From Planctomycetota bacterium (GTDB taxonomy: Bacteria > Planctomycetota > Planctomycetia > Pirellulales > Pirellulaceae): a stretch of DNA of 42,847 nucleotides. This document shows positions 8,222 through 29,284 of the stretch, piece by piece (positions within the stretch are counted from its first letter, which is position 1; each line of letters begins with the position of its first letter). Both the position numbers and the translations under genes were made by a program. Under the pieces are notes generated by a model. That model was not told the DNA's origin and did no database searches. It worked only from the letters and a program-made list of their open reading frames with translations. The stretch is from NCBI GenBank assembly GCA_026692845.1, contig JAPLNM010000031.1:1-42847 (forward strand). Direction: 5' to 3'.

Positions 8222-10249
8222 TTACTTCGACAGTTCCTTGGCCGTCGCATGCAGTCCGGCGGTATTGCCAAAACGCAGCGATCCGGGCAACAGGTTGGGA
8301 TCTTTGATCGACGAGGCTTTGCCGAAGTCGAATGTCGGAATCGCGTCAGAGACCTTGATGCTTTGGGGGCGTAAAACGGCAGCCGAATCCAGTAGGGTAC
8401 CAAGAGCGCCATCGGCTTGCCAAGTCACGTTCGAAAGTGTTTTGCCCGAAGGAGCATCGAGGATCGCAAGGAGCACGGCGAGTTTGCGCAGATACAAGCT
8501 TGGGTTGTACCCGTAGGTATAGCATGCTGCGGGTCTGGGATTTTTTACAAGCGACTGCTCCGTGGCTCCGAATTGGATTCCCCAAGCATCATCGACAGCC
8601 AGGATCGCTTCGTCCGACTTGGGGATTTGCGTGGATTGTAGGTCGCCGACGATTCGAATTTTTAGGCCGGGGTTCACGCTGTTGTTCAGAGGAGAGCCGG
8701 ATTTGAGAATTCCGACGTTGGTACCATCGGCGTTAACGACACGGACTGTGACGATGCCGTTTTCCGATCGAGCTTCGGTCACTGCAAGCGATTTCGCGAC
8801 GGTGTTGGCTGGCGATAGGATCGTTTTCCATCCGGTTTGCCGGATCTGTGGAGAAGCTGCGACCTGTGTCGCTACGTCGCTTGCCCAGCGTTCGAGCAAG
8901 TCGGCTTCGAATTCGATCCCGCCTTGGGGCTTCGGATGCTGATCGTCCCAGACGGTCATATCGGCAGCTTGGAGGACCTGGAAATCCTTTTCGAGGATCG
9001 GTTCGTCGAGGCCTAAGCCGAACAGACGGTTCATAAAACCGTACATTGGAACACGGGTTACGTGATTGTAGTTGTGGGGGAAATGGGTTGCATTGTGTAG
9101 GCTGACCGCATCGGGCACGCCGTAAAGACCGTAGAGTTTTTTGAGTTCTGGAAAACCGTCCTTGGCCATGTCCTTGGTCCAGTCGTTGGCTGCATTGACA
9201 CCCAAGGGGCGTGGGGCAGTCAGGGCTGCGATTTCAACGTTGCCCGTATTGACCCGTAGACCGACTGCATTTTCGCAGGTGCACCCACCTTGCATCGAGG
9301 TGCTGACCATGACGACCGGATAAGCACCCGCGAAGCGTGGGTCGATGGCCGAGGCGATAAACGTCTGGGTTCCTCCGCCACTGGCACCGGTAATCGAAAT
9401 CCGCTTGGCATCGACATCCGGACGTTGCAGGAGGAACTCCAGGGATTGGATGCTATTGATGGTTTGGATCCCCATGATGTTTTGAAGCATGCCTTCGGCT
9501 TTGGTGCTATAAAGCAACCATTTGCTCGCGGCGATGTCCGGGTTGGAGACTTTGTTTCCGAACCCGTGGACGCGTTCGGCGCTGATCTGTTGGCTGTCGG
9601 CATTCCCCATCATGTCGTAGTGGAACACGACGATCCCCATGCGAGCCATTTGCACGCAGCGCGCTTGGAGGGGGCTGTGGGCAGCGGATTCGAATCGTTC
9701 GGCACCGGTGATCAGCTCGCGTTTCATTTCCGCATCGGCGGTGTAATAGAACCGACCGTTGGCCCAATGCCCGTGCGGACACAAAACTGCGGGTCGTTTC
9801 TGGCCCTCGGTCAGTGGGGTTGTCGGAGTGTAGAGACTACCGGTAACGAAGAATCCTGGGAGGCTTTCGAAGTAGACTTTTTCGATCGCATAGCCGTCCA
9901 TTTCCTTGCGAGAATGCACGACGGGTTTGACCGGCGCGAGGGTCGGCATTGGGTACATCCCCAACGAGACGAGCAACTGCTGACGCAGATCCTTGGCGCG
10001 TGACTCCCAGGCCTCCTTGCTCTCGGGGACGGCGAACGGGAAATGCCCATCGAGATCCTTGATCGCGTATTTCGACTCGGGTGCTCGGATCGGATCGACT
10101 GGTTCGATGGCCGATGCGACGTTTCGATCGGCTGCCAAGTTTGAGAGGGCGGCTGTTGCAATTAGGGCACGGATCCAGATCGATCCGGAGCCGGATCGGG
10201 ATCGCGAGCCGGATCGGGAGCGGGAATTGCGGGAAGCTTGGAAATTCAT
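8222..10249 (-). CDS. Secreted alpha/beta hydrolase, acetylxylan-esterase-like
   Basis: A 675-residue secreted hydrolase of the AXE1/dienelactone-hydrolase type common in planctomycetes, likely a carbohydrate or polymer esterase. The nucleophile elbow G-A-S290-G-G-G follows a predicted beta strand (RISITGASGGGTQTF). The likely catalytic His is H389 or H392 in ATHFPHNYN. The N-terminus has an unusual Ser/Arg/Gly-repeat n-region (residues 6-26), then a hydrophobic core (IRALIATAALSNLAA) typical of a signal peptide. The start at ATG 10249 is chosen because AGGAG lies about 10 bases upstream; a longer open frame to 10441 has no such site. The C-terminal third (about 530-675) is a separate all-beta-looking region of unknown role. 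It is divergent from the HDAC-family gene, with 190 bp between. Confidence 0.85.
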   Translation of the reverse strand: MNFQASRNSRSRSGSRSRSGSGSIWIRALIATAALSNLAADRNVASAIEPVDPIRAPESKYAIKDLDGHFPFAVPESKEAWESRAKDLRQQLLVSLGMYPMPTLAPVKPVVHSRKEMDGYAIEKVYFESLPGFFVTGSLYTPTTPLTEGQKRPAVLCPHGHWANGRFYYTADAEMKRELITGAERFESAAHSPLQARCVQMARMGIVVFHYDMMGNADSQQISAERVHGFGNKVSNPDIAASKWLLYSTKAEGMLQNIMGIQTINSIQSLEFLLQRPDVDAKRISITGASGGGTQTFIASAIDPRFAGAYPVVMVSTSMQGGCTCENAVGLRVNTGNVEIAALTAPRPLGVNAANDWTKDMAKDGFPELKKLYGLYGVPDAVSLHNATHFPHNYNHVTRVPMYGFMNRLFGLGLDEPILEKDFQVLQAADMTVWDDQHPKPQGGIEFEADLLERWASDVATQVAASPQIRQTGWKTILSPANTVAKSLAVTEARSENGIVTVRVVNADGTNVGILKSGSPLNNSVNPGLKIRIVGDLQSTQIPKSDEAILAVDDAWGIQFGATEQSLVKNPRPAACYTYGYNPSLYLRKLAVLLAILDAPSGKTLSNVTWQADGALGTLLDSAAVLRPQSIKVSDAIPTFDFGKASSIKDPNLLPGSLRFGNTAGLHATAKELSK

Positions 10250-10439
10250 GACTGTGGGCTCCTGTGGAGGGAAATGCTCGAGGATGCAGAAGGGGTCCAA
10301 GGCAGCTATAATTGCACGGTGAAAAGACAAGGGTTCAACTAAAGTAAGATCAAGTATACCAACGAATCGGCAGCCTTGGTTACGGGATTTCGGTTCGTGA
10401 GACTCCGACAGCAAACGAGGACTAGCAAACGAGGCGTCC

Positions 10440-11366
10440 ATGTTATTGTACCACAGTGAAATCTTTGAAAAACACGATACTGGAAGTCATCCCGAGTGCA
10501 TCGCACGAATCGTCAATGTCCGCAGGATGCTCGAGAATCAAGGCTGGATCGAGCGTTGCGCGAAACCGAATTGGATGGCCGCGACGCTTGAGCAATGCAA
10601 GAAGAATCACACGGAGGCTTACCTCGAGCAACTCCATCGTTGGTGCGAACAGTCTGCCGGGCGTGTGGAGTCCGACACGGTCGTCTCGTCGGGCTCATGG
10701 GATGCAGCGACCTTGGCTGCCGGGGCCGCATGCGATGCTGTGCGTCGGGTATGCCGTGGCGAGGACACCCAAGCCTTTTGCGCGATTCGACCTCCCGGGC
10801 ATCATGCTTTGAAGGATGCTCCGATGGGGTTCTGCTTGCTCAACAGCATTTCGATCGCAGCGCAGCACGCTCGCTCTTTGGGGTGCGAAAAGGTCTTGAT
10901 CGTCGATTGGGACGTGCATCATGGCAACGGCACGCAAGCCTCTTTTTGGGAGGATCCGACGGTGGGATTTGTATCGATCCATCGGTTCCCATTTTATCCA
11001 GGTACTGGTCGTGTCGATGAAACCGGGGCTGGGCAAGGGCTAGGCACGACGGTCAATATTCCCGTACCAGCCGACACCGGCCCGAAGACCTTCCTCGAAC
11101 AGCTTGCAACCCAGACGGAGAAGTTCGCAAGGAAGTTCAAGCCCGATTTGATTTTGCTCAGCGCTGGGTTCGATGCCCATGAGAACGATCCGGTAGGCGG
11201 ATTGAGTTTGCAATCCGAGCATTACTTCGAAGCCGGAAAATGGATAGCCGCTTTAGCGAAGGAGCATTGCCAAGGGAGATTGGTGTCGCTTCTAGAAGGT
11301 GGCTACCACTTGAAGCACTTACCCGAGTCGGTCGACGCTCATCTCCAGGGCTTGGTCTCGGGGTGA
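10440..11366 (+). CDS. Histone deacetylase-family (acetylpolyamine/acetyl-lysine) amidohydrolase
   Basis: A 308-residue zinc-dependent deacetylase of the arginase/HDAC fold. The hallmarks are present: tandem His H121-H122 (RPPGHHA), metal ligands D158 and H160 in DWDVHHGNGT, the third ligand D245 in SAGFDAH, and the transition-state Tyr Y289 in LEGGYH. Bacterial members deacetylate polyamines, acetoin-pathway proteins or acetyl-lysine; the sequence alone does not tell which. Start ATG 10440 has a GAGG ribosome binding site 6-7 bases upstream. The stop codon lies inside a repeat element shared with 37185-37223 (see the 11359-11443 entry). Confidence 0.93.
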   Translation: MLLYHSEIFEKHDTGSHPECIARIVNVRRMLENQGWIERCAKPNWMAATLEQCKKNHTEAYLEQLHRWCEQSAGRVESDTVVSSGSWDAATLAAGAACDAVRRVCRGEDTQAFCAIRPPGHHALKDAPMGFCLLNSISIAAQHARSLGCEKVLIVDWDVHHGNGTQASFWEDPTVGFVSIHRFPFYPGTGRVDETGAGQGLGTTVNIPVPADTGPKTFLEQLATQTEKFARKFKPDLILLSAGFDAHENDPVGGLSLQSEHYFEAGKWIAALAKEHCQGRLVSLLEGGYHLKHLPESVDAHLQGLVSG

Positions 11367-11443: not shown

Positions 11444-11613
11444 GGTGCAGTCTCCGCGTTTGCGAAAATTTTTTTCGAACCAAATCCGGGCAAGATTTGC
11501 AATTCTTTTCTAGAATCAATAGCGGTGTTGATCGCTGGCCAGCGCACAAGGTGTTATTGCACCTGAGCAACACTTAGGACCCACTCACGTTGCTACCTAA
11601 GGAGGGATTGCTG
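11444..11613 (+). promoter_or_regulatory. 5' region of the giant gene, with ribosome binding site
   Basis: Gene-free region between the repeats and the giant gene. It contains an A/T-rich run (about 11462-11480) that could hold the promoter, but no convincing -35/-10 pair was found. A strong Shine-Dalgarno sequence TAAGGAGG lies at 11598-11605, 8 bases before ATG 11614. This decides the start over the in-frame TTG at 11590. Confidence 0.7.
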
Positions 11614-14600
11614 ATGCGTTCCATCGGTGCTGGCTGGACTCGTCGAATATTCGCTAAGACTAGTAATTCGCTACACAAGCGAAACCCAAAAAAAGACTCG
11701 AATCGCAAAAGAGCTTTGCTGCGGCGGATCCTCTTCGAAACCTTGGAAAACAGGCAACTGATGACCGCATCACCCTGGCTCCAACCTTTCCCTGAGCTAC
11801 CCGACGCTGGAGCCAATGCGCCAGTCAGCTTCCCCTGGATCGGTACCGGCGGGAACTTTTTTGGTCCCCGCGAAAAAGTTTGGATCGACAGCTTCGGTCC
11901 TACCGTTGAAGGAGGCGACCCAGGCTACATCCGAATCGCTAGGTCCAATACCCTACCCTCTTTGGAAGTCACCTTCAATATCCTTGCAGACTCGACAGCT
12001 CAAAAGAATGTCGACTACCTCGACCCGAATCCCATCGTCGTGTTCGAACCCGGACAAACCTATGTCGACGTGCCTATCGTCGCGATCGATGACGCGATTC
12101 CCGAAGCGACCGAGTCGGTCCGGTTTGTGCTTTGGGATACTTCCCGAGTTGGTACCTGGACCCCTTCGGATATCACCAGCTTAGTGATCTCCGACAATGA
12201 TCAAGGGTCGCGCATGACGACCCTTGAACTGCTCCCACCTGTCGATGGCCAAGAAGGCCTCCGCGATGGAAAAATCCGGGCACGTCGCTCCGGCTCAACC
12301 CAAGAGCCTCTCCAGGCCCCCTTCAAGGCGTTCTTCGGAAATGGGCTCATCGACGATCGGGATGTCCGGTTGAGTCCCAAACAATGGAATGCAAAATCTA
12401 GCACGGGTTTTTTTTACTTCCCGGCCGGGGAATCGTTAGCCTCAGTGGGCGTCTTGGTCCTCGACGATACCGAAGCTGAAAACACCGAGTGGATGGATAT
12501 TCAGTTGCTACCAAGTCCCAACGGCGAGTACCTTTTGGGAGGAAAACCTCAACAAACTCTCCGTATCTTTGACAACGATTCGGGTTCTGGAAAAAGACCG
12601 ACCGATGCGCCTGGAATCACCCAGATCACCCTTTCCAATGACACCGGGTCCTCCCCAAGCGATCGTGTCACCTGGGACGAACGCCTCGAAATATCGATCG
12701 ATGGCAAACTTCTCGGTGGACGCCTGCAAACCGAATTCGACTGGACCGGTGATTTCATTCCAGACACCAGCATTTCGGTCCATCAATCCCCTTCGACGTT
12801 CGGACTCGACCCTCGGAAATCGGATCCGAGACTTGCCGATCAACACGGCTTGCGCATCGTTCGATACCGTTCGAATTGGTACACCAAAGACGATGTCTTG
12901 ATCCAGCAATCCCCCTGGGAAGATTTCGCCTACCAGGTCGTCGAGAATCCGGACTCAGGTCCCTTGCGATTGAGCGATTTACGGCTCAAGGTCGATACGG
13001 GAAACTCCACCGACCGCATATCGAGCAATCCAACCGTGTGCGTCTCGATCCTAGGCCAGTACCCTCACACCGAGTCAGAACTCTCGTCGATACGGATCGA
13101 ATGGGATCAGACCAATGACGGCCGTGCGGACCATTCGGCCCTGCTGCCGACGGAGCAGCGCAGTGTTGACTTTGACCCTCGCACTGTGGATCCTGCATTT
13201 GCTCGGTTTCCAGGACCTCGGACTTTGCGTGTCCGGCTTCTGGACGATACGACGCAGGAACCGCTAGGCTCCTGGGAAACTCTCGAATTTACGATTCCCA
13301 ACACTCCGCCCACACCCTGGATCGTTTCGGAGATCACCCACAGGCCGCCGGGGCTACTGCAAGGCCGCGTGATCGATCCGAGCTTACAGGCCATGAACCC
13401 CAACTCCGGTGGTCTGGATCTGTCAGCTTCCCAATGGCTAGCTTCCCAATTACCAAACTCCAATTTATCAAACTCCTATTTATCGGTGCAGATCGCCAAG
13501 GAACTCGAAGATCAAGCGATTGCAACCGTTCCGGTCGAACAAGATTTCTCTTTCGAAGTAGCGATTGCGAATCTAACACCAGGAACCCACACCCTGCGGT
13601 TGCGTGCTCAGCAGTGGTCGAGCGAGTTGAGCATGTTTTTGACTGGGAACTGGACCGAGTACCGCCTTGAGGTCTCCCCTGCCGAACCTCCATCGATCCC
13701 TACTGCTCGGCTTCGCAACGACACCGGCACATCGAACCTCGATCGATCGACGAGTGATCCGACGATCCTCATCGACGTGGTATCCAACGCATCAGGATCT
13801 GGGTTGATGTTTCTGGACATCGATACAAACTCCGATTCGCAGGTCGACCATGTCATCCCCGTCCATCGCGAAGCGGAATCCAACTCCAGCCTGATTGTGT
13901 ACCGCGACGAGACCCTTTCGGCCGGCCCTCAGCACTACCGTTTTCGCTCAAGGAATGTCGATCCGCTCTCGGATTGGGAAGCGACTGGGGAATGGACCGA
14001 TTTCCATTGGACTTATGCTCCGGCCAAGTCTCCCTCGCTGTCCATCGCGCTGCTACGCGACGACGGCGCATCGAGCACCGACAGGATCACCTCGATCAGT
14101 ACCCTCGTCGGACAGTTCATCCCAAGTGACGATGTGGCCGATGCGGAGTCCTCGCTGGTCCAGATCGATTGGGACTCCGATGGCCGCGTCGATGACTCGG
14201 TCCGTCCTCAGCCCGATGGTAGTTTTACGATCCGACCTTCGCGGAACCCGATTGGTCCTCGGCGTGTTTCGGCCCGGATCGAGTGGACCGACCCTTTTCG
14301 AGAAACGATCCATTGGAGTCCCTGGACAACCTTCGACTACCAACTGACCAACCCATCGGATTCGGCACCGAGCATCGACGCACTGCGCCTTCTTTTCGAC
14401 ACCGGTATCAACCCGACGGATCGCGTCAGCAGCAGCTCGACGATCACTGGGACGGTCCTCAAAGAACTTAGCGCCGGCGATCTAATCGAGGTCGATCGCA
14501 ATGGCGATGGACTGACGGATGAGCAAGTTTCCCTCGACCCATCGGGGCGATTTTATTACTCCCCGATGGGGCTGTCTTTCGGTGCGCATGTGCTTGCCTT

Positions 14601-17600
14601 TCGTACCCGTGGACTCCAAGCAGTCCCGAACGGTTTTTCGAGGAGTCCATGGCAGTTGTTCGACTTGACCTATGTCGCCTCGACCCTAGAACCCGTAGTG
14701 ATCGATTCGATCGGGCTTGTCAATGATTCGGGAATTGCAAACGATCTTAGGAGCGAGCAAGGGGTCATCGCGGGCCGCGTGTCGAGCCCATCGGGCATCG
14801 CAGGTTCCGTCGTTTTGGTCGATCGTGACCAGGACCGCCAAGCCGACCAGACCATCGCTGTGGATTCAGAAGGTCGTTTTCTCTTTGACCCCAAGCTCCA
14901 GTCGACCGGCCAGTTTACGTTTTCGTTCAAGCCCATGCGTCTGTACGACACGGCGGTTGACGAATCACCTACGAGCCGATGGAGGGACTTCACATGGGTG
15001 ATCGAGGATCAGCCCGATGTATCTCCTGAACTTTACGGATTGGCATATGTCCCAAGCGACAGCTTGAAGGGGGCCCAGATCGTCGGAAAAGTACGTTCTC
15101 AGAGCTCCGTCGAGACGATTCGAGTCGATATCGACTCCGATGGAGACGGACATGTAGACCGCACTGTGGCGTCGACTGCCTACGGAGATTTTTCGATAGG
15201 ACTCGACGACGTATCGCCAGGAACCTATGCCTATCGCCTGCGCGCTGTTGCGACCGGAAGCCTGATTGAATCGCTTCAGGTCGGCTCATGGCAGACACTT
15301 GCCTTCGAATTGTCGGGCCCGCCGACGACCCAAGCGCGAATCGAGGAACTTAAACTCCGAGTCGACGATGGATTTGACGACTCGGACCGAATCACAAGCG
15401 ACCCGAGTCTTGTGGGTCGGGTCAGTCGCAGTTCGGCCTATGGGATGCTCGTCCTAGAGTTCGATACCGATGGAGACGCAATCGTTGATGATCGCTCGAT
15501 CGCCGCCGAGGATCTCCTCTTTCATTACACCCCAACTCAGATTGCACCTGGAGCTTTCCACATTCGCGCCCGGACGATGGAGTTAATGCCCACAGGAAAT
15601 GTATTGCGTAGCGAATGGTCGGAATTGCGAGGAACCTTGGTGTCCAAAACAAGCGGTGCACTGAGAATCGAATCGATAGAATTGCTCGGCGATTTCGGGC
15701 AAACTCCTGATGACCTTCGTTCGAGTCACCCGATGATCATAGGCTTTGTGGGCAATGCGTCCCAAGGAGCCAATCAGTGGGTTTTGGACATCGATCTGGA
15801 TCGCGACGGATCGAGCGATCAAAGCGAATTGTTTTGGGGAAACCATTTCAGTGTCACGCCTCGGATTGCTCAGCATGGGATGGTGGATCTGGGACTGCGG
15901 ATCCGGTCCAAGGACTCGAGCGAAGCGAGCCCTTGGTACTCCTTGGGCTTCCTTTATCATCCAGAGCCGCGCAGCCGAGAAGCCGACGCTTGGGTGTCGA
16001 CCTACCGAACGATCGCAACGGCGATGAACCAAGGGGCATCACAGCATATCCAGGGATTAGGACAGGCGATTACGAAACTGGCTCAGGACAGGCAGACGGC
16101 GAGCACCGAGCGAGAGGTTCGCAATCAAGTATCGATCAGCCATCGGCTCTTGGCGATTCGGGAATCGGCTAGTGGCTATTGGAGTCAGATCGCCGAGGCA
16201 CAGGTTCAATTAAGTAAGAGCCAACGCGAGGCGCTTGACGCTCTGCAAGAGCGATTGGAATCGACCGGCTCGCCCGAGGTGATGTTGCCCCTACCCGAGG
16301 AGCTAGCGATTCTATGGCCCTCGGATCCGCTTCCCGTGCTGCCCTACCTGGATAGCGAGTGGTTCGCGGCTGAGGAAACGCTCCCTCGGCCTCCGGTCCT
16401 TGCGCCCCTGGATCGCAACGAGCCGAGCATTGCGAGCTTTGCTCGGAGTACCACGCTTTCGGAGGCACTTAATCGTGATGACTTAAGCGACATCGGAGTC
16501 GACTTGAACGATCACCAAGCCTATCAGTCCGACTTGCAGACCCGTCGCTCGAAGCTGATTACCGACTACCGCTCGCTCCAATCGCAATCCAACGCAAGAA
16601 TCGTTCAGGCGCAGGAGATTTATGACTTGGTAATGAGCGATGCGGAATCCGCGTACCGACGGGCGATGCAAGAAAACGGCAAGGCCATGGATGGTTTTTT
16701 CGCCGAGGATTACTCTGCGATTTTTCAGCAGTTCGCGCAGGACACCCAAGCGTCCCAGGAGTTTTTTCAAGCGAGGCGCAAGGCCACGGAGGATCGCTAC
16801 CGGGCCGAAATGAAACTGGTCAGCGAATCGCACGCAGAGCAGATGCGGACGGCTGCGAGGAATCGTGATGCGAGTTTTGAAGCAGCGATCCGCGAACTCG
16901 CTTCTGTACTCAACAGGGTGCCACCCCCTGAATGGCCGATCGTCAAGGCCGCTATTGTCAGGCACGCTCAGTTGCGTTTCGATGCGGAGCATTTGTACGA
17001 CAAAACGGTCCTGAGCATCCGAATCGAAGAGCAAAGCGCTTCGTACAAAATCCAGCGGGAACAGTTCGCGGAAAACGCTCAAGCTCAGCGGGAGTATGCG
17101 ATTGAGGCATCAGAGATCCAGCGCGTTCGCGATGCAGCACTTGCCGAGCAAAAATTCCAGTTCGCTCTTCGTCGAGCCAATGCGGCAGAACGCCTAGACC
17201 GAGCCACGGAATTGGCTGGCTACAACCTCAAAGTCGCCCGCGATCGAGCTTGGGCTGAACTCGAACAAGCGAGGAACTTGGTCGAACGCGATCGGCGAAT
17301 AGGGTTCGATGGACTCATGCGACGATTCGATCTTGCGCACGCGTCGGCACTGGTCGCGACCCTAACGCAGATCGATCAACTCCTTGCGACACCGGACTCC
17401 AACGCGCACTTGAAAAAAGCGAAAGCTCGACAGGAGTTGCTCGACGCCTGGGATCCTAAGCTAGAGCAAAGTAGCATCGCCCAAGCCGACGTTTGGAAAC
17501 AGTTTGCTTCTGCGAAAACTACAGCGGAGTTGAATCGCCGAATTGAGAACTTAGCCGATGAGCATGCACGCACGAATGAGCGGCTCGATGCTACTTGGGC

Positions 17601-20600
17601 GTTCAGAAAAGAGCATGCCGCCCTTGTACAATCCCACGCCAAGAGCTTGGCCCAAATCAGGCATGACACGCGATCCGGACTGATCGAGGCCGAACACTTG
17701 CAATCGCTCGATACAGGGCTGATGGGGATCTCTTATCTGGAAGGGGAGTCATCCATCGCGAGCGATTTCAGGCAGCGCTCGCTCAATGCCATGGTTTACA
17801 CGCCACCTGAGCCCATGGATTGGCTTGGGGGTTGGGGATGGATCAACGATGATTTCTTGATTGCGGCAAGCGGGAGTGTCACCATTCCTGCTCCGACGGC
17901 ATTTCAATTGACGCACGACCAATCCGTGGCGACCGCCGAGTTGGTCTACCGAAGCGAATCGAGTCGCATCGGGATCGATCATCGGTACTTTCAGCAACGC
18001 GATACGATCGAGGCGAAGTCCTTGCAGGAGGTCGAGTCCCTCAGGGTCGGGAGTTTGGGAGCTGAAGTGGAACTGCAGCGTCGTTTTCATTTGGCGAGTG
18101 CTCGGGCCGATCGCAAGCAAGCCGTCGGCCAAGTCGATCGAAAAGCCGACTGGGACTCGGCGGTAGCAATCGCAGAAAAGGACTACCGCATCGCTGGTAA
18201 TGACTTGGTTCTGAGGATCGAACAGCAGCTGGCAATTGGCCGATCCGCGTATATGCGTTCCATGCATGGGATCCACTTGGAACGATCCATCGAGGAATGG
18301 GATACTTATTTGTCGGGTGTTCAGAAGTGGCGAGATTCCGATCCGACCGAGTGGACCGACTACATCCTTGCCGACGCGACCGCAGCTAGGCGGCTGGGAG
18401 TCCAACGGGCGCAGTTGACCAGGGGATTGGCCGATTCGCTTGCCGAGCAGAAAGATCGGGATGATTTTATAACCGCTCGCATCGATCGATTGGCAGACTC
18501 TGAAAACGCGACGAGCGATTTCGAATACCGTCGGTCCAAGCTCGTCGCAGAGCGAGAGCTAGGCCGATCGATCGCAGACGCAAAGTTCGTTTTTGCGGAG
18601 AAAACCGCTGGGGTGTTGCAATCGCAGGACTCAGGATGGAACTTCGCAGTCCCGACGCATTCAACCCCGACACAGCTAGAGTTGCGTCTAAGTGCGTCTA
18701 GGGTGACCGAGCAAGCCGCCCGGCTTGATGCTCAGTCACAGCTTCATGCGAGCACTCGGCGGGCCGAGGCCCAACGGACCCGTTCGCGTGGAATCTATCA
18801 AATCCAATTGGAACTAGTCTCCAGCGGTTTCGATTGGGCCAAGTATCAGCGGGGCCTTGAGTTGCTCGATCGACTTTTCCACGAGAGCCTACAACACATC
18901 CAGGCTGAGTTGGACCTGTCACAGAGTCAATCGAATCTGGAACTTCGCGAGAAAAGAGCGGAGATAGTGCGGCAGGCTCAAACAGAGCTCGCGAGTATTC
19001 AAGTCACCGAAGCCAGGTGGGCTTGGAAGGAGGATATTCCTCGGCTCGCTGCGCATCGGTCCTCGCAACGCGACATGGCCCAAGCCATCCAAGCGGCAGA
19101 GGAACATTTCGCCCAGCAGATGGCCTCGTTGCAAACCTCACGGTCCGAATCGACGTCGCGAACCGATTTCCGACGAGGGGTCGATGCCCGCGTTGTCCAA
19201 TACGGCGCGATCGAAAATGAAAACAACCTCAGAGCCCATCAGGAATCCTCGGCAGCCGATGCTCTCGAAGCGTATGGATCGCAGGTGCTTGATTCAAAGA
19301 ACGCTTACCAAAAGCGGAGCCTTGATCGGCAGTCACTCGAGTTGGAAAAGGTCTACCGTCGGCTCGATCCGCATACCAAGCAGCTCTTAAACCTCCAGGT
19401 TTCGGGTCTGTTGCTGCGCCAAGCGTCCATCCGCGAAGCGAATGCGTGGAAGTATCAAAACGCATCGGTTCTACGCCGAAGCGACGCATCCGATCGATCG
19501 GCAACCCAACGAGAGACCGAACGCAAAATCAGGAACGCTCAGGAGCAATTCGAGTACCAAAGCGCGGACCTTCAACGAGCTCAAGCCGTTGAGAAGGTCC
19601 GTCTGCAGGGTGTTTGGAAAGTGGCTAGTCAGCAGGCGACCAATGCGGTCCGGAGGACCGAAACGATCCTCGAGTCGGTCTACGATCAGCAGACCCAAGA
19701 GACGCTCGATGGGATGAATCAGAATCTCCTTGAACAGCAAAAAGTCCAAGCGGAGCAAATCGGAGAGGCATGGAAATCTTACTACTTGGCGATGCACCCT
19801 GAGTCGGGACCGATTCATGTTTCACTTCGAAGAGAGTACGACGGATGGTTCGGATTGCGAGTCAGGCCGAACTTGGCTATGGCAACTCTATGGCGATCGC
19901 AGACCATGGCTCTCAATGGGCTTGCGGATCTTCGCAATCATCACGCTGCGTTTGATTTGCGAGAAAAGCTCGAGACCTTGAGCTTTGTCCAGCAATCGAA
20001 TCGTACCGAGTTGCAGGTCGAGTTTGCACTTGGGATTTCCGACCCGAAAGTCCAACGGATCGAAGCGTTAGGCCGAGCCCAGCGCGAGCTTCTTCAAGCG
20101 TCCAGCAACGCCGATCGTCAGCAAGCTCAGCTACAGCATGAATCCGCGATGGATTTGCAAAACCAACTCGCCGAGTTGCAAGCTAGCTGGACTGTGCGAA
20201 GAGATCAGATGGAAATGGAATTGGTTCAATCGGTTCAGAGCCGTACAGGGCTGACGGCTGAGCGAGCTGAAGCGATCGAACGGAAGTTTCTCGAGGATTC
20301 CCAGAGAGCCTCGCTCAGGTACGAGCGGGATTGGGCTTTAGCGCAATCCGAATACCATAGGGTTCTTAGCCGCAAGCGAAGCGATTTACTCGAGCAATCT
20401 GCGCACGATGATTTGCGATCGAAGGCTTTGGCGGCCCATGCCGAAGGCTATGCGCAGTGGATGGAGGAAGTCTCTTCCGACTATGTCGCGTCTGTGGAGG
20501 CAGGATTCAACGCTCGGTCGATCGATCAGCTCGCAAATCGAGCGATCGAGCACAATCGAGCGACCGCAGAACGCGTCGCCAACGAGGGTTTGGCAAGGCA

Positions 20601-23600
20601 AAGCGACGCATTTCTTCGAGAATCGGAACGGGAAAAAGCCGAGCTGGAATACGTTGCTGCACGTGACCAAGCGGCAGCCGAGTACCAAGCGATTCAGGAT
20701 CGACGTCAGATCGATCTGGAGTATCAGCTTTTGGTGCTCTCGAACCAAGCGGTGTTTCTCCAGGCCACCGAGCGATCGGAAAGTGTCGCCCAGGTCATGA
20801 AACTGCGAGGATATCCGGTGGCAAACCAGATACGGGAAAAGAGTTTGCTGGTCGCCGAAGCGCGTTACACCCAAGTTCTCGCCGATGCCGATGCGTTGAT
20901 GGACTGGCAGCGGCAGGTGGCCGAAGAGTCCTTGCAGATCCGTCTTGAACAGTCCGAGCGCACCGATCGGCTCAGCACTGGCCTTGGTCGATTGGAACAC
21001 CAACGCCAACGGAGCCTGACGAAGTTCGAGCAAGAGCGATCCGATGCGATCGCCCAAGCGCGGTACGACCACCAACTCCAAACGATTCAGAGCGAAGGCG
21101 ATTTGGCCCGTGCGCAGGGCCAAGTGCAGGCTGCATGGCTCCTGGCCTCTTGCCAAGAGAAGATTATTGCTAGGGAGCATCTCCAGGATTCCGTGCCGGG
21201 TGCTTGGTCCGATTTCCTGGTTGGGCTTGCCGAGCACGAATACCGTATGCTGGGAGAGTGGAATGCTGCCGAGCAACGTTGGATCGATAGCCGCAGTGAC
21301 TCCGATAGCCAATACCAAAGGGAGATCGGCCAAGCACAGCTCACTCGGTCGCTGAGGCTGAGCCAGGCCCAGAACGCTGCGAAAGCATCCGAGACGCAAC
21401 AGGAACAAGCTCTTTTCGAATCCAAGAGCCAAGCGTTGGTTGCATTCCTAAAAGAGTTAGAGTCCCCGGCTCAGCGATACATCGAGCAAGCCACCGAGCT
21501 GGAAAATGCATCCACGAAATCCGTCGCGTTGGCTGAACGGGATTGGCGCGTGGATCTCGACGCGACGAGGTACCAACAGAGGCTCGAAGATGCCCGTCGC
21601 ATGCGTCAGTCCCAGCTCGATCGTTTGGCACGAACCTGGAATCGCGACTATGCAAACGCGATGGCCAACAAACGGACGAGTGAATCCGATGCGGAGCGTG
21701 CAAGTCTAGTTTCGCAGATCGAAAGCGAGTTTCGCTTCGCACAGCAAACGCGCGATGCAGCCAAGGAACTGATCGATCGAGAGGCTGATGCTTATCGGGA
21801 TTCCGAACGGAGTTGGGCCATGGCCGAGCGGGAATATGCTCAGAGCACTGCGGACTTGCAGAGAGGACTTGCCGAGCGAGTGGATCAGGAGCAAGCAAGT
21901 TTATGGAGCGAATTTTTCCTAGATATCACCAAGGCCAAGGCCGAGTCGATCGAGTGGACCGCGTTGGCCATCGAAGGCAAGGTACTCGCGGAATCCCAGG
22001 AGCAAGCCGAGCACGAGAAGCAGCAGGGGGTGCTGCAATGGGTTTGGGATCTCGGGCAGTGGACCGCTAGCGACCTTGCACGGCGCGCCGTTGTCGCGTT
22101 GGATTGGAGGCTTGAGGGTACGAAGATCCAAGCGATACGAGCGATGGCGCAAGCGACGCTTTCGAATCAGAACGATCTTGAGATCTCGAGTCCCGATGCC
22201 TTGATTGCGGATCTATCCAGATTGCAGCACTTTACCTCCGCGGATCGCCGTTACGAATTGCTATTTAGCGAGCAGATTGGTTTGAATGAGGCCATATGGA
22301 ATTGGCAAGACACAGGTTTTCTGCAATGGATACGCTCACCGCAGGAGCAGTTTGCCGAGTCGTACTGGTCGCTAAAAACGATCGTGCATGCACGGAGTAT
22401 GACGATAGAGTCCCCGCGGGTCGATCCGGTCCAGATGCCTGAAGGCTCCTTGGATCCGTTGGTCCAGATCGCAGGAATTCCCTCGAAAGCCAGTACACCG
22501 ACGATCCGGATGATGCCTCAAACCGATCAGACCCAGGAGGCTTTGGTGCGATTGGATCGCGAGTTTTCCGCAAGTCAGATCGAATGGTTGGATTCCCACG
22601 GACGGGTATTGAGGGCCATGGATCGGCCCGATTTTTCGGAATTGTTCGCCGATCGAACGATCGTCTGGGATCTGCAAACATCTCCGATACGTATTGCGGA
22701 GCAAGTGCCTGAATCGCAAGAGCGGTTCTTCGTGCAGGACCAAGACCAATGGCGTGAATTTATGAATCTAGCGAACTATTCGTACGAAGGTCCTTCGGCA
22801 GTAGTGACCAGTCCTGTCGTGCGAGGTTGGTTGAGCAAGTACCAGCGTCATGTCGGGGATCCGTTGGATACCGCAGCAGAGGGCTTGCGCGGCAAGTACG
22901 AAGGATCGAATACGATCAATCATCGCGATCGGGTTGTCGAGAGCAAAGGGGTTGCCTATTGGCAGCATACTGTTGGGGTCGAACCGAGCCGAAACGAGGG
23001 GCCTTTCCTTCTGAAATCGGTAAGAACCCGAATAGGAGTGATCGATCGCAATGGATGGGTTTATCTGCCCTCGGGCCAGCGTGTGCTTTACAGTGCGTTG
23101 GTCAAGTGGGCAGACGAGTTGACGATGGGCAGTTCGCGGGAGATCAACCGGCTGATCGATGGGTTGATATCCCCTTTTTCGATCGAAACCGAGTCCAGGC
23201 AATATGGGATATTCATCGGCGGGACCGGGATGCACATGTTCGGCATCGGCAATGTCGAGCGGCTTTACAACATGTACCAGGGAACCAAATTCTATTACGG
23301 AGGGGTTGGGAATCCGGCCGAATACGACTCGAAGAATCGGGTTTTTGCCGACAACGCTGCTGGGTATGGCTGGACGGAGATTCTCGACCGCATCGAGGCC
23401 GATGTTCTAGCTCACTATCGCGGGTGGCAAAAACTCCATGTCTTCGGATGGAGTCGAGGGGCGAGCATGGGGATCGAGTTTGCAAGGAGGATGGGCCGTT
23501 ATGGAATCGAGGTAGAGTTTTTAGGATTGTTCGATCCGGTCTATTCCTATGTTTTACCGGGACAAAGTTCCTCGCTGATTCAGTGGAGTTCCAACGGTCG

Positions 23601-24432
23601 TCGGGGCAATTACGTTACGGCGATTCCGACCACGAATGTCAAAGCCATCGGAGCTTTGTATGCGATCCATGAGGATCGGAGCTTCTTTCCAGCGACGAAG
23701 TTAACGCACGATGGAATGACTCGTATGAAGTTGATGAAATCGCCCGGCGCGCACGGAGAGGTTGGAGGGCATTTTTTGAGCAATCTACCCCTGCAAAGAA
23801 TGAATCTCCGGGCGATGATCGAGTTTGCGATTTTGGACGGACACGTTCGCTTTGAGTTTGAGGGTATCGAGCAGGATTTGGTGCAAATTTACTCCTCACC
23901 GCTGACGAAGAAACTGCAGATTCAAGCGATCAGCGAGCCGATGACCGTGATCGAATCGCGAGGCAAAGCGATCCGTGCATTGGAGATCTCCAGTTGGCAA
24001 GCGATGCGGGCCGAGGACTACTACAGAGAGCTGGTCGAATGTTCAGCACAGGGGTGGAAGCCCAGCGGATTTGGGTTTCAGAAAGGAAGGATTACCGGAG
24101 CAGTCGCCTATGGATTGGAATTCGTTCAGGAGATTTTACCGCCTTTGATTTTGCCGCCGATGATTTCTTCCAAGGGTGTTTTTTCCAATGGAAGGAGTAT
24201 TGGACCGATCCGGCAGACAGCCTACTCGCATTACCGCCGCGACCTTCAGTGGTGCGAGCTCGAGTTGTGGGACTTGGAGTTGATGCAAGACCCATCGGGC
24301 AAGAACTGGCTCAGTGAGCCTCAGAAGGAACGCGTGCGGTTTTTCTATCAGCTCAAGATCGATCCGAAGACTGGGGATTGGTTGTTCAATGGCAGGCCTA
24401 TTTCCAACATAGCCCTTCGTGGAGGACGTTGA
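11614..24432 (+). CDS. Giant LEPR-XLL surface protein with Tle1-like lipase domain
   Basis: A single 4272-residue reading frame. The N-terminus is basic and carries RRILFETLENRQLMT (about residues 39-53), a variant of the planctomycete LEPR-XLL motif of giant secreted proteins. Two Calx-beta-like domains follow (about 94-198 and 203-326). Ten diverged beta repeats of about 110 residues begin near 334, 451, 568, 695, 809, 921, 1029, 1139, 1241 and 1350, several with DxDxDG loops likely to bind calcium. Residues about 1453-3712 are highly charged, Gln/Ala/Arg/Glu-rich helix, probably coiled coil. The end (about 3859-4096) resembles DUF2235/Tle1 phospholipases: GGTG start, nucleophile S3947 in GWSRGA, D3974 in LFDPV, and H4047 in PGAHGEVGG. 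TAAGGAGG sets the start. Surface location and lipase activity are inferences. The stop overlaps the convergent M24 gene by 35 bp. Confidence 0.9.
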   Translation: MRSIGAGWTRRIFAKTSNSLHKRNPKKDSNRKRALLRRILFETLENRQLMTASPWLQPFPELPDAGANAPVSFPWIGTGGNFFGPREKVWIDSFGPTVEGGDPGYIRIARSNTLPSLEVTFNILADSTAQKNVDYLDPNPIVVFEPGQTYVDVPIVAIDDAIPEATESVRFVLWDTSRVGTWTPSDITSLVISDNDQGSRMTTLELLPPVDGQEGLRDGKIRARRSGSTQEPLQAPFKAFFGNGLIDDRDVRLSPKQWNAKSSTGFFYFPAGESLASVGVLVLDDTEAENTEWMDIQLLPSPNGEYLLGGKPQQTLRIFDNDSGSGKRPTDAPGITQITLSNDTGSSPSDRVTWDERLEISIDGKLLGGRLQTEFDWTGDFIPDTSISVHQSPSTFGLDPRKSDPRLADQHGLRIVRYRSNWYTKDDVLIQQSPWEDFAYQVVENPDSGPLRLSDLRLKVDTGNSTDRISSNPTVCVSILGQYPHTESELSSIRIEWDQTNDGRADHSALLPTEQRSVDFDPRTVDPAFARFPGPRTLRVRLLDDTTQEPLGSWETLEFTIPNTPPTPWIVSEITHRPPGLLQGRVIDPSLQAMNPNSGGLDLSASQWLASQLPNSNLSNSYLSVQIAKELEDQAIATVPVEQDFSFEVAIANLTPGTHTLRLRAQQWSSELSMFLTGNWTEYRLEVSPAEPPSIPTARLRNDTGTSNLDRSTSDPTILIDVVSNASGSGLMFLDIDTNSDSQVDHVIPVHREAESNSSLIVYRDETLSAGPQHYRFRSRNVDPLSDWEATGEWTDFHWTYAPAKSPSLSIALLRDDGASSTDRITSISTLVGQFIPSDDVADAESSLVQIDWDSDGRVDDSVRPQPDGSFTIRPSRNPIGPRRVSARIEWTDPFRETIHWSPWTTFDYQLTNPSDSAPSIDALRLLFDTGINPTDRVSSSSTITGTVLKELSAGDLIEVDRNGDGLTDEQVSLDPSGRFYYSPMGLSFGAHVLAFRTRGLQAVPNGFSRSPWQLFDLTYVASTLEPVVIDSIGLVNDSGIANDLRSEQGVIAGRVSSPSGIAGSVVLVDRDQDRQADQTIAVDSEGRFLFDPKLQSTGQFTFSFKPMRLYDTAVDESPTSRWRDFTWVIEDQPDVSPELYGLAYVPSDSLKGAQIVGKVRSQSSVETIRVDIDSDGDGHVDRTVASTAYGDFSIGLDDVSPGTYAYRLRAVATGSLIESLQVGSWQTLAFELSGPPTTQARIEELKLRVDDGFDDSDRITSDPSLVGRVSRSSAYGMLVLEFDTDGDAIVDDRSIAAEDLLFHYTPTQIAPGAFHIRARTMELMPTGNVLRSEWSELRGTLVSKTSGALRIESIELLGDFGQTPDDLRSSHPMIIGFVGNASQGANQWVLDIDLDRDGSSDQSELFWGNHFSVTPRIAQHGMVDLGLRIRSKDSSEASPWYSLGFLYHPEPRSREADAWVSTYRTIATAMNQGASQHIQGLGQAITKLAQDRQTASTEREVRNQVSISHRLLAIRESASGYWSQIAEAQVQLSKSQREALDALQERLESTGSPEVMLPLPEELAILWPSDPLPVLPYLDSEWFAAEETLPRPPVLAPLDRNEPSIASFARSTTLSEALNRDDLSDIGVDLNDHQAYQSDLQTRRSKLITDYRSLQSQSNARIVQAQEIYDLVMSDAESAYRRAMQENGKAMDGFFAEDYSAIFQQFAQDTQASQEFFQARRKATEDRYRAEMKLVSESHAEQMRTAARNRDASFEAAIRELASVLNRVPPPEWPIVKAAIVRHAQLRFDAEHLYDKTVLSIRIEEQSASYKIQREQFAENAQAQREYAIEASEIQRVRDAALAEQKFQFALRRANAAERLDRATELAGYNLKVARDRAWAELEQARNLVERDRRIGFDGLMRRFDLAHASALVATLTQIDQLLATPDSNAHLKKAKARQELLDAWDPKLEQSSIAQADVWKQFASAKTTAELNRRIENLADEHARTNERLDATWAFRKEHAALVQSHAKSLAQIRHDTRSGLIEAEHLQSLDTGLMGISYLEGESSIASDFRQRSLNAMVYTPPEPMDWLGGWGWINDDFLIAASGSVTIPAPTAFQLTHDQSVATAELVYRSESSRIGIDHRYFQQRDTIEAKSLQEVESLRVGSLGAEVELQRRFHLASARADRKQAVGQVDRKADWDSAVAIAEKDYRIAGNDLVLRIEQQLAIGRSAYMRSMHGIHLERSIEEWDTYLSGVQKWRDSDPTEWTDYILADATAARRLGVQRAQLTRGLADSLAEQKDRDDFITARIDRLADSENATSDFEYRRSKLVAERELGRSIADAKFVFAEKTAGVLQSQDSGWNFAVPTHSTPTQLELRLSASRVTEQAARLDAQSQLHASTRRAEAQRTRSRGIYQIQLELVSSGFDWAKYQRGLELLDRLFHESLQHIQAELDLSQSQSNLELREKRAEIVRQAQTELASIQVTEARWAWKEDIPRLAAHRSSQRDMAQAIQAAEEHFAQQMASLQTSRSESTSRTDFRRGVDARVVQYGAIENENNLRAHQESSAADALEAYGSQVLDSKNAYQKRSLDRQSLELEKVYRRLDPHTKQLLNLQVSGLLLRQASIREANAWKYQNASVLRRSDASDRSATQRETERKIRNAQEQFEYQSADLQRAQAVEKVRLQGVWKVASQQATNAVRRTETILESVYDQQTQETLDGMNQNLLEQQKVQAEQIGEAWKSYYLAMHPESGPIHVSLRREYDGWFGLRVRPNLAMATLWRSQTMALNGLADLRNHHAAFDLREKLETLSFVQQSNRTELQVEFALGISDPKVQRIEALGRAQRELLQASSNADRQQAQLQHESAMDLQNQLAELQASWTVRRDQMEMELVQSVQSRTGLTAERAEAIERKFLEDSQRASLRYERDWALAQSEYHRVLSRKRSDLLEQSAHDDLRSKALAAHAEGYAQWMEEVSSDYVASVEAGFNARSIDQLANRAIEHNRATAERVANEGLARQSDAFLRESEREKAELEYVAARDQAAAEYQAIQDRRQIDLEYQLLVLSNQAVFLQATERSESVAQVMKLRGYPVANQIREKSLLVAEARYTQVLADADALMDWQRQVAEESLQIRLEQSERTDRLSTGLGRLEHQRQRSLTKFEQERSDAIAQARYDHQLQTIQSEGDLARAQGQVQAAWLLASCQEKIIAREHLQDSVPGAWSDFLVGLAEHEYRMLGEWNAAEQRWIDSRSDSDSQYQREIGQAQLTRSLRLSQAQNAAKASETQQEQALFESKSQALVAFLKELESPAQRYIEQATELENASTKSVALAERDWRVDLDATRYQQRLEDARRMRQSQLDRLARTWNRDYANAMANKRTSESDAERASLVSQIESEFRFAQQTRDAAKELIDREADAYRDSERSWAMAEREYAQSTADLQRGLAERVDQEQASLWSEFFLDITKAKAESIEWTALAIEGKVLAESQEQAEHEKQQGVLQWVWDLGQWTASDLARRAVVALDWRLEGTKIQAIRAMAQATLSNQNDLEISSPDALIADLSRLQHFTSADRRYELLFSEQIGLNEAIWNWQDTGFLQWIRSPQEQFAESYWSLKTIVHARSMTIESPRVDPVQMPEGSLDPLVQIAGIPSKASTPTIRMMPQTDQTQEALVRLDREFSASQIEWLDSHGRVLRAMDRPDFSELFADRTIVWDLQTSPIRIAEQVPESQERFFVQDQDQWREFMNLANYSYEGPSAVVTSPVVRGWLSKYQRHVGDPLDTAAEGLRGKYEGSNTINHRDRVVESKGVAYWQHTVGVEPSRNEGPFLLKSVRTRIGVIDRNGWVYLPSGQRVLYSALVKWADELTMGSSREINRLIDGLISPFSIETESRQYGIFIGGTGMHMFGIGNVERLYNMYQGTKFYYGGVGNPAEYDSKNRVFADNAAGYGWTEILDRIEADVLAHYRGWQKLHVFGWSRGASMGIEFARRMGRYGIEVEFLGLFDPVYSYVLPGQSSSLIQWSSNGRRGNYVTAIPTTNVKAIGALYAIHEDRSFFPATKLTHDGMTRMKLMKSPGAHGEVGGHFLSNLPLQRMNLRAMIEFAILDGHVRFEFEGIEQDLVQIYSSPLTKKLQIQAISEPMTVIESRGKAIRALEISSWQAMRAEDYYRELVECSAQGWKPSGFGFQKGRITGAVAYGLEFVQEILPPLILPPMISSKGVFSNGRSIGPIRQTAYSHYRRDLQWCELELWDLELMQDPSGKNWLSEPQKERVRFFYQLKIDPKTGDWLFNGRPISNIALRGGR

Positions 24433-25582
24433 GATTGATGCACCCCGACTCGGTAACGACGACCATGTCCTCGACGCGAATTCCGCCGAGGGCTTTGCAA
24501 TAGAGCCCTGGTTCGATGGTCACCACATCGCCTGCGATCAATTCCGGACCGCCTGCGGCCAGCAAGGGTGGCTCGTGGACCTCGAGCCCAAGTCCATGTC
24601 CGGTTCCGTGGGTCATGCTGGTAAACGCGTCGGGTGCATCTTGGGCGGGCAGGCCCATATGGTAGCCAGCTTTGAGGATGGCTTGTACGGTAGCTTCATG
24701 GACCGCTTGTCCGGTAACACCGGCACGAACGGCCTGTGTCGCAGCGAGTTTCGATGCGACGACGGCGCGGTGCATCGATTCGAGTTCTGGTGACACAGCA
24801 CCGTGGACCACCGTACGGGTGCAATCGCCGTTGTAGAGGTTGGATTTGACTCTCGGAAAGATATCGACGATCACGGGCTGTTCGGTGAACAAGGGTCCAT
24901 GACCATGGTCATGGCAATCGGCGCCGATGGGACCGCAAGCGACGATCGCCCCGGGGTTCGAGCAGTCGCGTTCCAGGAGCCAAACATCGATCATCTTACG
25001 CATTCGCTCGCTCGTCAGCGGAGCTCCTTGATGGTGCAAGACGCCTTGCGCGTCGGCACTGGCACGAGCGATTGTCGAGCAGGCAAGCTCCATGACTTGT
25101 TCGGTGATCCGTTGGGCTTGATGAATCATCTCGATCTCGTGGGCGTCTTTGCATCGTCGTTCCATCACGCCCCATTGGGTGTCGCATTGGATTTCGATGC
25201 CTGCTCTTTGGAGCATTTCGGCATAGATCATCGGCAGCGATCGATCGACGACGACACGGTCAAATCCGGTGCGTCGGAGCATTTCGGCAGCCGACTGCGC
25301 GGTGGCTGTTTCGCGATCCCCTGAAAGGCCTTCGGCGGGTGTGAAGTCGGCTGGGCAGTGGACGAGGTCGACGGCTGCATTTTGGCGGGCTCGTCCCATT
25401 TCGATATCTCTGCAAATGAGCATTCGATGGCTGGTTCCGTCGGCCTGCGGCACTTGCAGATAAACCACCGGGTCACCGACCAAGAAACGGATGCTGCGAT
25501 AGAGGCTCGCATTGAGCGTTGGGATACCGGCCATCATCCTGGGGGTATTCAACTGAGTGGAATTCAGCGTTGCATTGCTCAT
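24398..25582 (-). CDS. M24 family metallopeptidase (Xaa-Pro aminopeptidase-like)
   Basis: A 394-residue pita-bread-fold aminopeptidase/prolidase. The five metal ligands are all visible: D240 (VIVDIFP), D253 (NGDCTR), H329 (THGTGHGLG), E357 (TIEPGLY) and E371 (RVEDMV). The N-terminal domain (about 1-140) is the usual creatinase-like substrate-binding region. It probably removes N-terminal residues next to proline in the cytosol. It ends inside the 3' end of the giant gene (35-bp convergent overlap), and it starts 3 bp after the stop of the YjbQ-family gene, so the two minus-strand genes are likely co-transcribed. Confidence 0.92.
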   Translation of the reverse strand: MSNATLNSTQLNTPRMMAGIPTLNASLYRSIRFLVGDPVVYLQVPQADGTSHRMLICRDIEMGRARQNAAVDLVHCPADFTPAEGLSGDRETATAQSAAEMLRRTGFDRVVVDRSLPMIYAEMLQRAGIEIQCDTQWGVMERRCKDAHEIEMIHQAQRITEQVMELACSTIARASADAQGVLHHQGAPLTSERMRKMIDVWLLERDCSNPGAIVACGPIGADCHDHGHGPLFTEQPVIVDIFPRVKSNLYNGDCTRTVVHGAVSPELESMHRAVVASKLAATQAVRAGVTGQAVHEATVQAILKAGYHMGLPAQDAPDAFTSMTHGTGHGLGLEVHEPPLLAAGGPELIAGDVVTIEPGLYCKALGGIRVEDMVVVTESGCINLNVLHEGLCWK

Positions 25583-27238: not shown

Positions 27239-27521
27239 TCCGACGGCGATTCAAACGCTGAGAATCAAACGCTGAGAAGAGCCGATAGGAATAGATTGCC
27301 GGTTCGGATTGCTCGATCGGCTTACTCGATCGGCTTACAAGTCTTATCGCCCGCACCAATCCCCCAGCTTATCTTCTCTAAAATGCTAGCAATTCCGTTT
27401 CTTGCAAACTTCGATTGAAGTTTGCCACAAGGCCCAGTGACGGGATTGACTCACTGCCTGTGGCTATCCTAAAAAACGGGTTCCCGCGTTGGGGATCTCT
27501 TGTCTTTCAAGGAATTTCGAA
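27239..27521. other. Intergenic region with short tandem repeats and a hairpin
   Basis: No gene is seen. Near the start there is a two-copy direct repeat ATCAAACGCTGAG (first copy ATTCAAACGCTGAG, about 27246-27273), and then a two-copy CTCGATCGGCTTA repeat (about 27313-27340). A long bulged hairpin lies at 27424-27464 (GCCACA with TGTGGC, and CAGTGA with TCACTG inside). It could be a processing site or terminator, but no T-run follows. Confidence 0.55.
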
Positions 27522-29029: not shown

Positions 29030-29111
29030 GCAATCCGAAGCGACCGGTATTCCGAGCTCTGCAATGGACGAAGTCTTATCCGATCGGGGATAGGCAAGCC
29101 CACGCGATAAC

Positions 29112-29150
29112 GAAACTAGATAACAGAAACTAGATAGCAGAAACTAGTTA
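29112..29150. repeat. Three-copy 14-bp tandem repeat
   Basis: GAAACTAG starts at 29112, 29126 and 29140, an exact 14-bp period (unit close to GAAACTAGATARCA). It lies in the gap before the PSD1 protein gene and has no assigned role. Confidence 0.75.
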
Positions 29151-29284
29151 GCCGAAGCTTGCCGGAACCTATCGTCCCGACGATTTCCGATAGAGAACTT
29201 TCTGCAAACCTGCCTGCTTGCAAACCTGCTAAAATACACGACTAGTTGGCCCTTGACGGAAAGCGTCGTATTGTAGGAGTTTGT

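Follow-up and report, generated by a model that had tools for sequence, protein, structure and literature searches.

A giant Pirellulaceae protein with a Tle1-like lipase tip, a probable polymorphic-toxin-type effector on a long helical scaffold

Introduction

What is the function of a 4272-residue protein that begins with a planctomycete export-type motif, continues through a very long helical region and ends in a lipase-like domain? The question is raised by the window, the whole stretch of DNA that was analysed (42,847 nucleotides, contig JAPLNM010000031.1), which comes from a planctomycete of the family Pirellulaceae. Based on sequence comparison, we suggest that the giant is probably a polymorphic-toxin-type effector, predicted to be exported and to display a Tle1-like lipase tip on a stalk against competitors. 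Related giants bear other toxin-type ends on the same scaffold, which makes it most likely a member of an undescribed family of giant toxins whose tips are interchangeable.

Architecture of the giant protein

The frame starts at ATG 11614, with an in-frame TTG at 11590, and its stop ends at 24432. The following parts were delimited:

11614..24432, + strand: gene for the giant protein, 4272 aa, an open frame with homologues in other genomes
11722..11775, + strand: LEPR-XLL-type motif LFETLENRQLMTA, residues 37-54, presumed export signal (PF07595 18.7 bits, cut-off 25.5)
11965..12198, + strand: Calx-beta domain, residues 118-195 (PF03160 30.5 bits, cut-off 27)
12631..16113, + strand: Ig-like repeat region, about residues 340-1500 (composition, and repeated scaffold-profile matches inside the same giants)
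16471..22194, + strand: helical stalk, about residues 1620-3527 (composition, and AlphaFold of residues 2950-3800)
22195..23013, + strand: linker from stalk to tip module, the least constrained part (dN/dS 0.28 and 0.36), with low pLDDT
23014..24429, + strand: C-terminal tip module, about residues 3801-4272, including a conserved tail past the catalytic core (alignments, and local alignment with the RHS-borne tip of genome G274)
23176..23823, + strand: Tle1-like catalytic core, residues 3855-4070 (PF09994 over cut-off, hhalign 99.1, dN/dS 0.075 and 0.080)
23452..23454, + strand: codon of S3947, predicted nucleophile
23533..23535, + strand: codon of D3974, predicted triad acid
23752..23754, + strand: codon of H4047, predicted triad base

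A preliminary description of this DNA had proposed an LEPR-XLL-type N-terminus, several Calx-beta domains and over 2,000 residues of helix, and each of these was retained in part. The LEPR-XLL motif lies at the expected place, with the Planc_extracel family (PF07595) scoring under its cut-off; a LEPR-like pattern is present in 15 of the 30 listed giants, and 13 of the remaining 15 are truncated at the 5' side in the DNA retrieved. Calx-beta exceeds the Pfam cut-off as a single domain rather than several. The helical stalk is indeed long, the figure being slightly high: about 1,900 residues by composition, 570 of these modelled. Big_13 was over the Pfam cut-off in the G162 homologue only, and NCBIfam gave no match in the window giant or the G207 giant.

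Pro and Gly are scarce over most of the stalk, and A, E, Q, R, K and L are abundant. AlphaFold modelling of residues 2950-3800, together with three relatives, produced five helices of 114, 125, 118, 110 and 88 residues, interrupted briefly about every 120 residues, the last helix ending at 3517 (mean pLDDT 59.7; ten-residue blocks 21-470 at pLDDT 61-92; no resolved structure past 3517). Period analysis gave no strong heptad signal in the stalk, and nucleotide repeats within the gene are weak. A PF00268 match in the stalk (11.9 bits, cut-off 33.6) was taken as chance.

The tip is a Tle1/DUF2235-type domain

A Tle1/DUF2235 domain with a Ser-Asp-His triad had been proposed for the C-terminus, and our searches bear this out. 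PF09994, the Tle1-like catalytic domain, matched residues 3956-4069 at 30.8 bits (cut-off 27) and at 27 bits in the genome search. Comparison of a profile of eight giant tips with a profile of eight standalone planctomycete DUF2235 proteins gave an hhalign probability of 99.1 (E 1.5e-18), and the stalk profile, used as a control against DUF2235, gave 0.1. The triad residues are found as earlier placed: S3947 in FGWSRGA, D3974 in LGLFDPVYS and H4047 in SPGAHGEVGG.

Searching the PDB with the profile of eight giant tips returned nine chains at E up to 10. Tle1 enzymes stand at ranks 1, 2 and 5 (6sjl, E 0.0011; 9j3f, 0.017; 4o5p, 0.22), and the remaining chains are mainly thioesterases. S3947, D3974 and H4047 align with positions 197, 245 and 310 of 6sjl, which we take to be the Tle1 of EAEC with these residues as its triad, and with 276, 316 and 383 of the 9j3f chain. 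The latter positions are each exactly 36 above S240, D280 and H347, the catalytic triad of TleB (PMC12421835), and from this constant offset we infer that 9j3f is TleB. In the alignments with the PDB chains the E-values for single domains are weak (6sjl, 5 and 6.5; 9j3f, 0.077), so that the profile-profile match is the stronger evidence for a Tle1-like tip; with the tip sequence alone, phmmer against the PDB detected no lipase, and Tle1 was reached by profile only. The AlphaFold model of the tip, from a four-sequence alignment, is too poor for judging the fold (mean pLDDT 35.6), and the alpha/beta-hydrolase fold is thus predicted by homology. Foldseek with this low-confidence model gave no match at E <= 0.001.

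The genome of the window additionally encodes a standalone 379 aa DUF2235 protein (L001, G000:C89:102266-103024; 241 bits), in which the HxD motif of the family reads HAN.

The same scaffold carries other tips

Scaffold profile A6 (residues 1300-2060 of the window protein plus seven relatives) has matches in 28 of the 241 genomes of the family, spread over 17 of 68 genera; many of the matches cover the Ig-like part only. Collinear scaffold homology was detected in G149 (Ig 820 bits, two stalk parts 138 and 178 bits) and G091 (Ig 517 bits, stalk parts 76 and 143 bits), both Pirellulaceae of other genera than the window's; in G209 the Ig part (288 bits) and the first stalk part (44 bits) matched. 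Reversed controls for the Ig and stalk profiles gave no match at E up to 10.

The ends of these proteins differ from the Tle1-like tip. The G149 giant, from a single-contig genome, has 5805 residues and shares 27.5% identity with the window protein across 1854 columns. At its C-terminus stands a pretoxin-HINT domain (PT-HINT 74 bits, cut-off 27.7) followed by an AHH-like end, which is a motif reading by eye, AHH not being reported there by Pfam. G091 has another C-terminus, an unnamed tip, and the G209 protein, cut by its contig, has a Hint-type match below cut-off. Among looser relatives, with a match to the Ig profile only, G107 ends in Tox-GHH (52.4 bits, cut-off 25) and PT-HINT scores over cut-off in G090, G027 and G064. 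Altogether, Pfam was run on 14 other C-terminal ends; five (G107, G090, G027, G064 and G149) have a toxin-type domain and nine have no match. NCBIfam, run on 10 other ends, detected no toxin family, only intein-type or chance matches.

Directly beyond the G149 giant, an Ank-SUFU gene overlaps the stop codon and is followed by a homologue of the tip-partner proteins described below. This group (L116/L118, G149:C1 ~3254960-3274608), comprising the PT-HINT/AHH-like giant, the Ank-SUFU gene and the homologue of a Tle1-tip partner, looks like a small immunity array. In the accessible text of PMC3482391, ankyrin immunity proteins are placed beside Tox-AHH, in planctomycetes among others, and an ankyrin-SuFu fusion is given for Firmicutes.

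Several further giants were observed. L161 (G107:C2) is a 9116 aa open frame that matches the Ig scaffold and has the Tox-GHH nuclease domain at its end. The C-terminal ends of L153 (G044) and L157 (G021), two giants of different genera, resemble each other (GHAFV.../QCAVF...RETL); they have no Pfam match and are a candidate new tip family. At L155 (G025:C19) and L156 (G025:C273), small ORFs of 126 and 146 aa overlap the stops of the giants by 4 bases, and neither has a Pfam match.

The same tip occurs behind RHS cores

Occurrence of the tip on other large proteins, raised in the preliminary description, was confirmed: it is carried by homologous giants in other genomes, and in G274, from a different planctomycete class, this tip module stands after an RHS-core-like end, where Pfam reports PF09994 only and the RHS core was read by eye. 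Local alignment of the G274 tip with the window protein scores 444 (best of 200 shuffles, 68), and in a tree of 21 sequences the G274 tip and nine giants form one clade with support 1.00. DUF2235 tips were also found behind RHS-type sequence in G025 (RHS_repeat, 98 bits) and G385 (RHS read by eye). DUF2235 is described as a toxin domain, Tox-ABhydrolase1, and is listed with RHS repeats and for planctomycetes (PMC3482391).

The G025 protein (L040, G025:C45, 511-17772, + strand) is a frame of 5754 residues that opens with a LEPR-like motif, contains RHS repeats and closes with a DUF2235 tip; a 287 aa lipoprotein-like ORF overlaps it downstream. Its domain order suggests an RHS toxin on a planctomycete export signal.

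The traits of polymorphic toxins that were detected are a toxin-type domain at the extreme C-terminus of a large protein of exported type, varied tips on the scaffold, and the tip on other scaffolds. The combination of the scaffold with different toxin modules holds between genera, not inside the clade of the window.

Candidate immunity genes beside the tip

The immunity proteins known for Tle1 toxins are either lipoproteins or Sec-exported, and their genes lie beside that of the toxin (PMC13133936, PMC12421835, PMC9860674). Five of the eight tip loci judged (G203, G007, G274, G025 and G385) are followed directly by an ORF on the same strand that encodes 134-296 aa and starts with a hydrophobic segment. 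In G274 and G025 this ORF overlaps the stop of the tip gene, and in G385 it lies 198 bases away; the G203, G025 and G385 products have a lipobox, as read by eye. By the same rule the window-type locus, G162 and G199 have no partner gene. The window, G170, G207 and G183 represent one locus type and were counted once, and G052, G202 and G201, where the contigs end, were left out of the count.

As a control, 5 of 95 other long ORFs in the fetched loci have such a neighbour; the binomial probability of five or more such loci among eight at this rate is about 2e-5, for a rule that was shaped after the cases were seen. Once the G025 and G385 genes were known, the size limit had been raised from 260 to 320 aa and the permitted gap from 160 to 210 bases. 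With the narrower rule the count is 3 of 6 loci versus 2 of 67 control ORFs, one of those two being the G274 tip locus.

G203 and G007 belong to different genera, and their partner proteins are homologues: the local score is 72, against maxima of 48 in 1000 shuffles and of 50 when the mature parts alone were compared. They are 25% identical overall, and the likeness lies mainly in 31 C-terminal residues (42% identical); the G007 partner is encoded on another contig than the long G007 giant, beside a slightly different tip. The G274 partner resembles neither. A profile of the G203 and G007 partners matches 4 of 241 family genomes: G203, G007, G149 (3.4e-7) and, doubtfully, G047 (0.009). In the window's genus nothing except G203 appeared below E 0.03, and the window's genome contains no homologue at E up to 1. 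The G203, G007 and G149 partners have no Pfam match and thus, by Pfam, do not belong to the known DUF3304 or DUF2931 immunity families. Their position and export signal, and the one case of homology, suggest that the partner genes are putative immunity genes.

Conservation of the tip in the clade and a possible domestication

At the window locus the 3' end of the giant gene is occupied by a neighbour, an arrangement shared by three relatives:

24398..25582, - strand: convergent M24 peptidase gene, overlapping the 3' end of the giant gene by 35 bases, also in G170, G207 and G183

With this overlap, a partner gene has no space at the locus. No other part of the protein is as well conserved within the clade as the tip. 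Three named MAGs have relatives at 89, 89 and 74% tip identity; G162 is 71% identical in the tip versus 36% in the stalk, and G199 74% versus 39-40%. Two dN/dS comparisons gave 0.075 and 0.080 for the tip core, 0.225 and 0.221 for the stalk, and 0.28 and 0.36 for the linker, a third comparison being saturated.

The tip profile, built from some of the genomes that it matches, finds 9 of 27 genus genomes. The G195 match is an ordinary 328 aa protein, so that the tip of the giant, whole or in part, is present in 8 of 27; G183 has a 325 aa protein, plus the C-terminal piece of the giant on another contig. Stalk homologues also occur in 8 of 27 genus genomes. In five of these (G000, G170, G207, G162 and G199) the Tle1-like tip is in the same ORF, in G183 and G203 it is on another contig, and in G201 the contig ends where the tip begins. 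Tip swapping was not seen among these eight stalk-bearing genomes. In the phylum sample the tip was matched in 6 of 392 genomes, the window's own counted. No tip relatives were found in the viral contigs scanned, and none in the plasmids searched with the G274 tip.

The window locus without an adjacent partner gene, and the clade's most conserved and unswapped tip, stand against a classical toxin-immunity unit. They support a rival explanation, in which a toxin-derived tip now serves as a domesticated surface lipase for nutrition, envelope remodelling or attack on non-bacterial cells, the tip being fixed and lacking an immunity gene. The partnerless G162 and G199 loci and the lack of a partner homologue in the window's own genome point the same way. 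Arguing against domestication, G203, of the same genus and with the same scaffold, has a lipoprotein gene directly downstream, and homologous scaffolds bear toxin-type ends. We regard a domesticated lipase as rather unlikely, and still note that, with no partner gene and one tip in its clade, the protein of the window's lineage may now be a fixed lipase with a different target.

Catalytic residues and the possibility of an inactive tip

DG and GxHxD are motifs named for the DUF2235 family (PMC3482391). In the giants the family motif DGT is replaced by GGT or AGT (9/9) and HxD by HxE (8/9); the window protein has GGT and HGE. These changes, and a tip that gives no confident structure model, would fit a catalytically dead or non-lipase relative, retained for binding or stability only. 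Exact HxD is also absent from several accepted family members, for instance the G000 and G183 standalones with HAN. Against a dead domain, Ser, Asp and His are kept in all nine giants covering these positions, in frames picked partly by their Ser and His motifs and not by Asp, and the serine is carried by all nine serine-covering giant ORFs found via motif-free searches. The tip core has, moreover, the lowest dN/dS of the protein, and we consider loss of catalysis improbable.

Genomic context and type VI secretion

Tle1 enzymes being type VI effectors, the preliminary description had linked the giant to type VI secretion, and this link was not upheld: VipB, the sheath protein and the sole type VI gene sought, was not found in the window's genome (96% complete; the same search was positive in E. 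coli), and Pfam detected no type VI family among the nine proteins scanned near the giant gene. With the LEPR-XLL-type N-terminus and the 4272-residue architecture also against it, and the catalytic domain family in its favour, a Tle1-family effector of type VI secretion is very improbable.

Upstream of the giant gene are genes for an M16 peptidase, a PP-loop protein, an AXE1-like protein (below cut-off) and a member of the histone-deacetylase family; downstream, past the M24 gene, are a malate/lactate dehydrogenase gene and others. Two neighbours are of alpha/beta-hydrolase type, the AXE1-like gene at 8222-10441 (- strand; below cut-off) and an Abhydrolase_2 gene at 27489-28376 (+ strand; over cut-off). 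The window also contains a tandem repeat at 1419-1570 (41-base unit, 3.7 copies, 98% matches) and 12-15 base tandem repeats at 29106-29156 and 29297-29393, before and at the start of a cytochrome/PSD1-type gene (29246-32488).

Discussion

The proposal of a new surface effector or polymorphic toxin gains from the other tips on the homologous scaffold, the tip behind an RHS core and the exported-protein genes at five of eight loci; it loses in novelty, since the tip is already known as a toxin. The LEPR-XLL/Calx-beta/Ig/helical scaffold, rather than the tip, seems to be the new part, and no description of such a toxin scaffold was found in the open literature searched. A bolder reading, which we hold to be slightly more likely than not, is an undescribed contact weapon of Pirellulaceae that would combine a giant scaffold, interchangeable toxins (the Tle1-like lipase, HINT-associated nuclease-like ends and unnamed tips) and downstream immunity genes, and would function without type VI secretion.

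In our preferred reading, that of a polymorphic-toxin-type giant effector, the N-terminal LEPR-XLL-type signal would export the giant, and the Calx-beta and Ig-like domains with the helical region of about 1,900 residues would hold the C-terminal module away from the cell. This module, by homology a Ser-Asp-His lipase of the Tle1 type, may hydrolyse membrane phospholipids of a contacted competitor, as the characterised Tle1 enzymes suggest. By comparison, the scaffold family bears different C-terminal toxin-type modules in different lineages, and the gene for an exported protein or lipoprotein beside the tip at other loci would provide immunity. The window's lineage, with no partner gene at that place, may tolerate the enzyme by its location, or may target cells unlike itself.

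CdiA, the protein of contact-dependent inhibition, is exported, very long and tipped by an exchangeable toxin, for which an immunity gene lies downstream. The giants resemble it in outline, being long proteins of exported type with exchangeable toxin-type ends and, at some loci, a candidate immunity gene downstream. They differ in that the Pfam results for the giant contain no two-partner-secretion or filamentous-haemagglutinin family and in that the stalk is helical, not beta-helical.

With the Tle1 type VI effectors (TleB, and Tle1 of EAEC and P. aeruginosa) the giant shares the catalytic family and the aligned Ser-Asp-His (PMC12421835, PMC9860674, PMC13133936). An exported or lipoprotein partner gene beside the tip is a further likeness at several related loci. 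The window giant, unlike these effectors, has no VipB in its genome, no type VI neighbours among those scanned and no partner gene, and its N-terminal architecture differs. Tox-ABhydrolase1/DUF2235 (PMC3482391) is the same family of C-terminal toxin domain, found here behind RHS cores in G274, G385 and G025. The accessible text of that paper contains neither 'Calx' nor 'LEPR' and describes no giant of the LEPR-XLL/Calx-beta/Ig/stalk type; the DGT and HxD motifs altered in the giants are another difference. The huge planctomycete proteins of PMC11573180 are alike in size class, phylum and extracellular-type domains; that survey starts at 5000 aa, and its accessible text notes no toxin tip or immunity gene.

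The scaffold would be a weapon part unlike the RHS cores and type VI components that bear DUF2235 elsewhere, and the weapon reading predicts partner proteins for the tips. The size of the giant and its LEPR-XLL-type N-terminus raise the question of how it is exported and how the tip reaches its target. The roles of planctomycete giants are mostly obscure, and one class of them gains a testable role as weapons with exchangeable tips; if true, the contact-weapon reading would explain what a large group of these proteins does.
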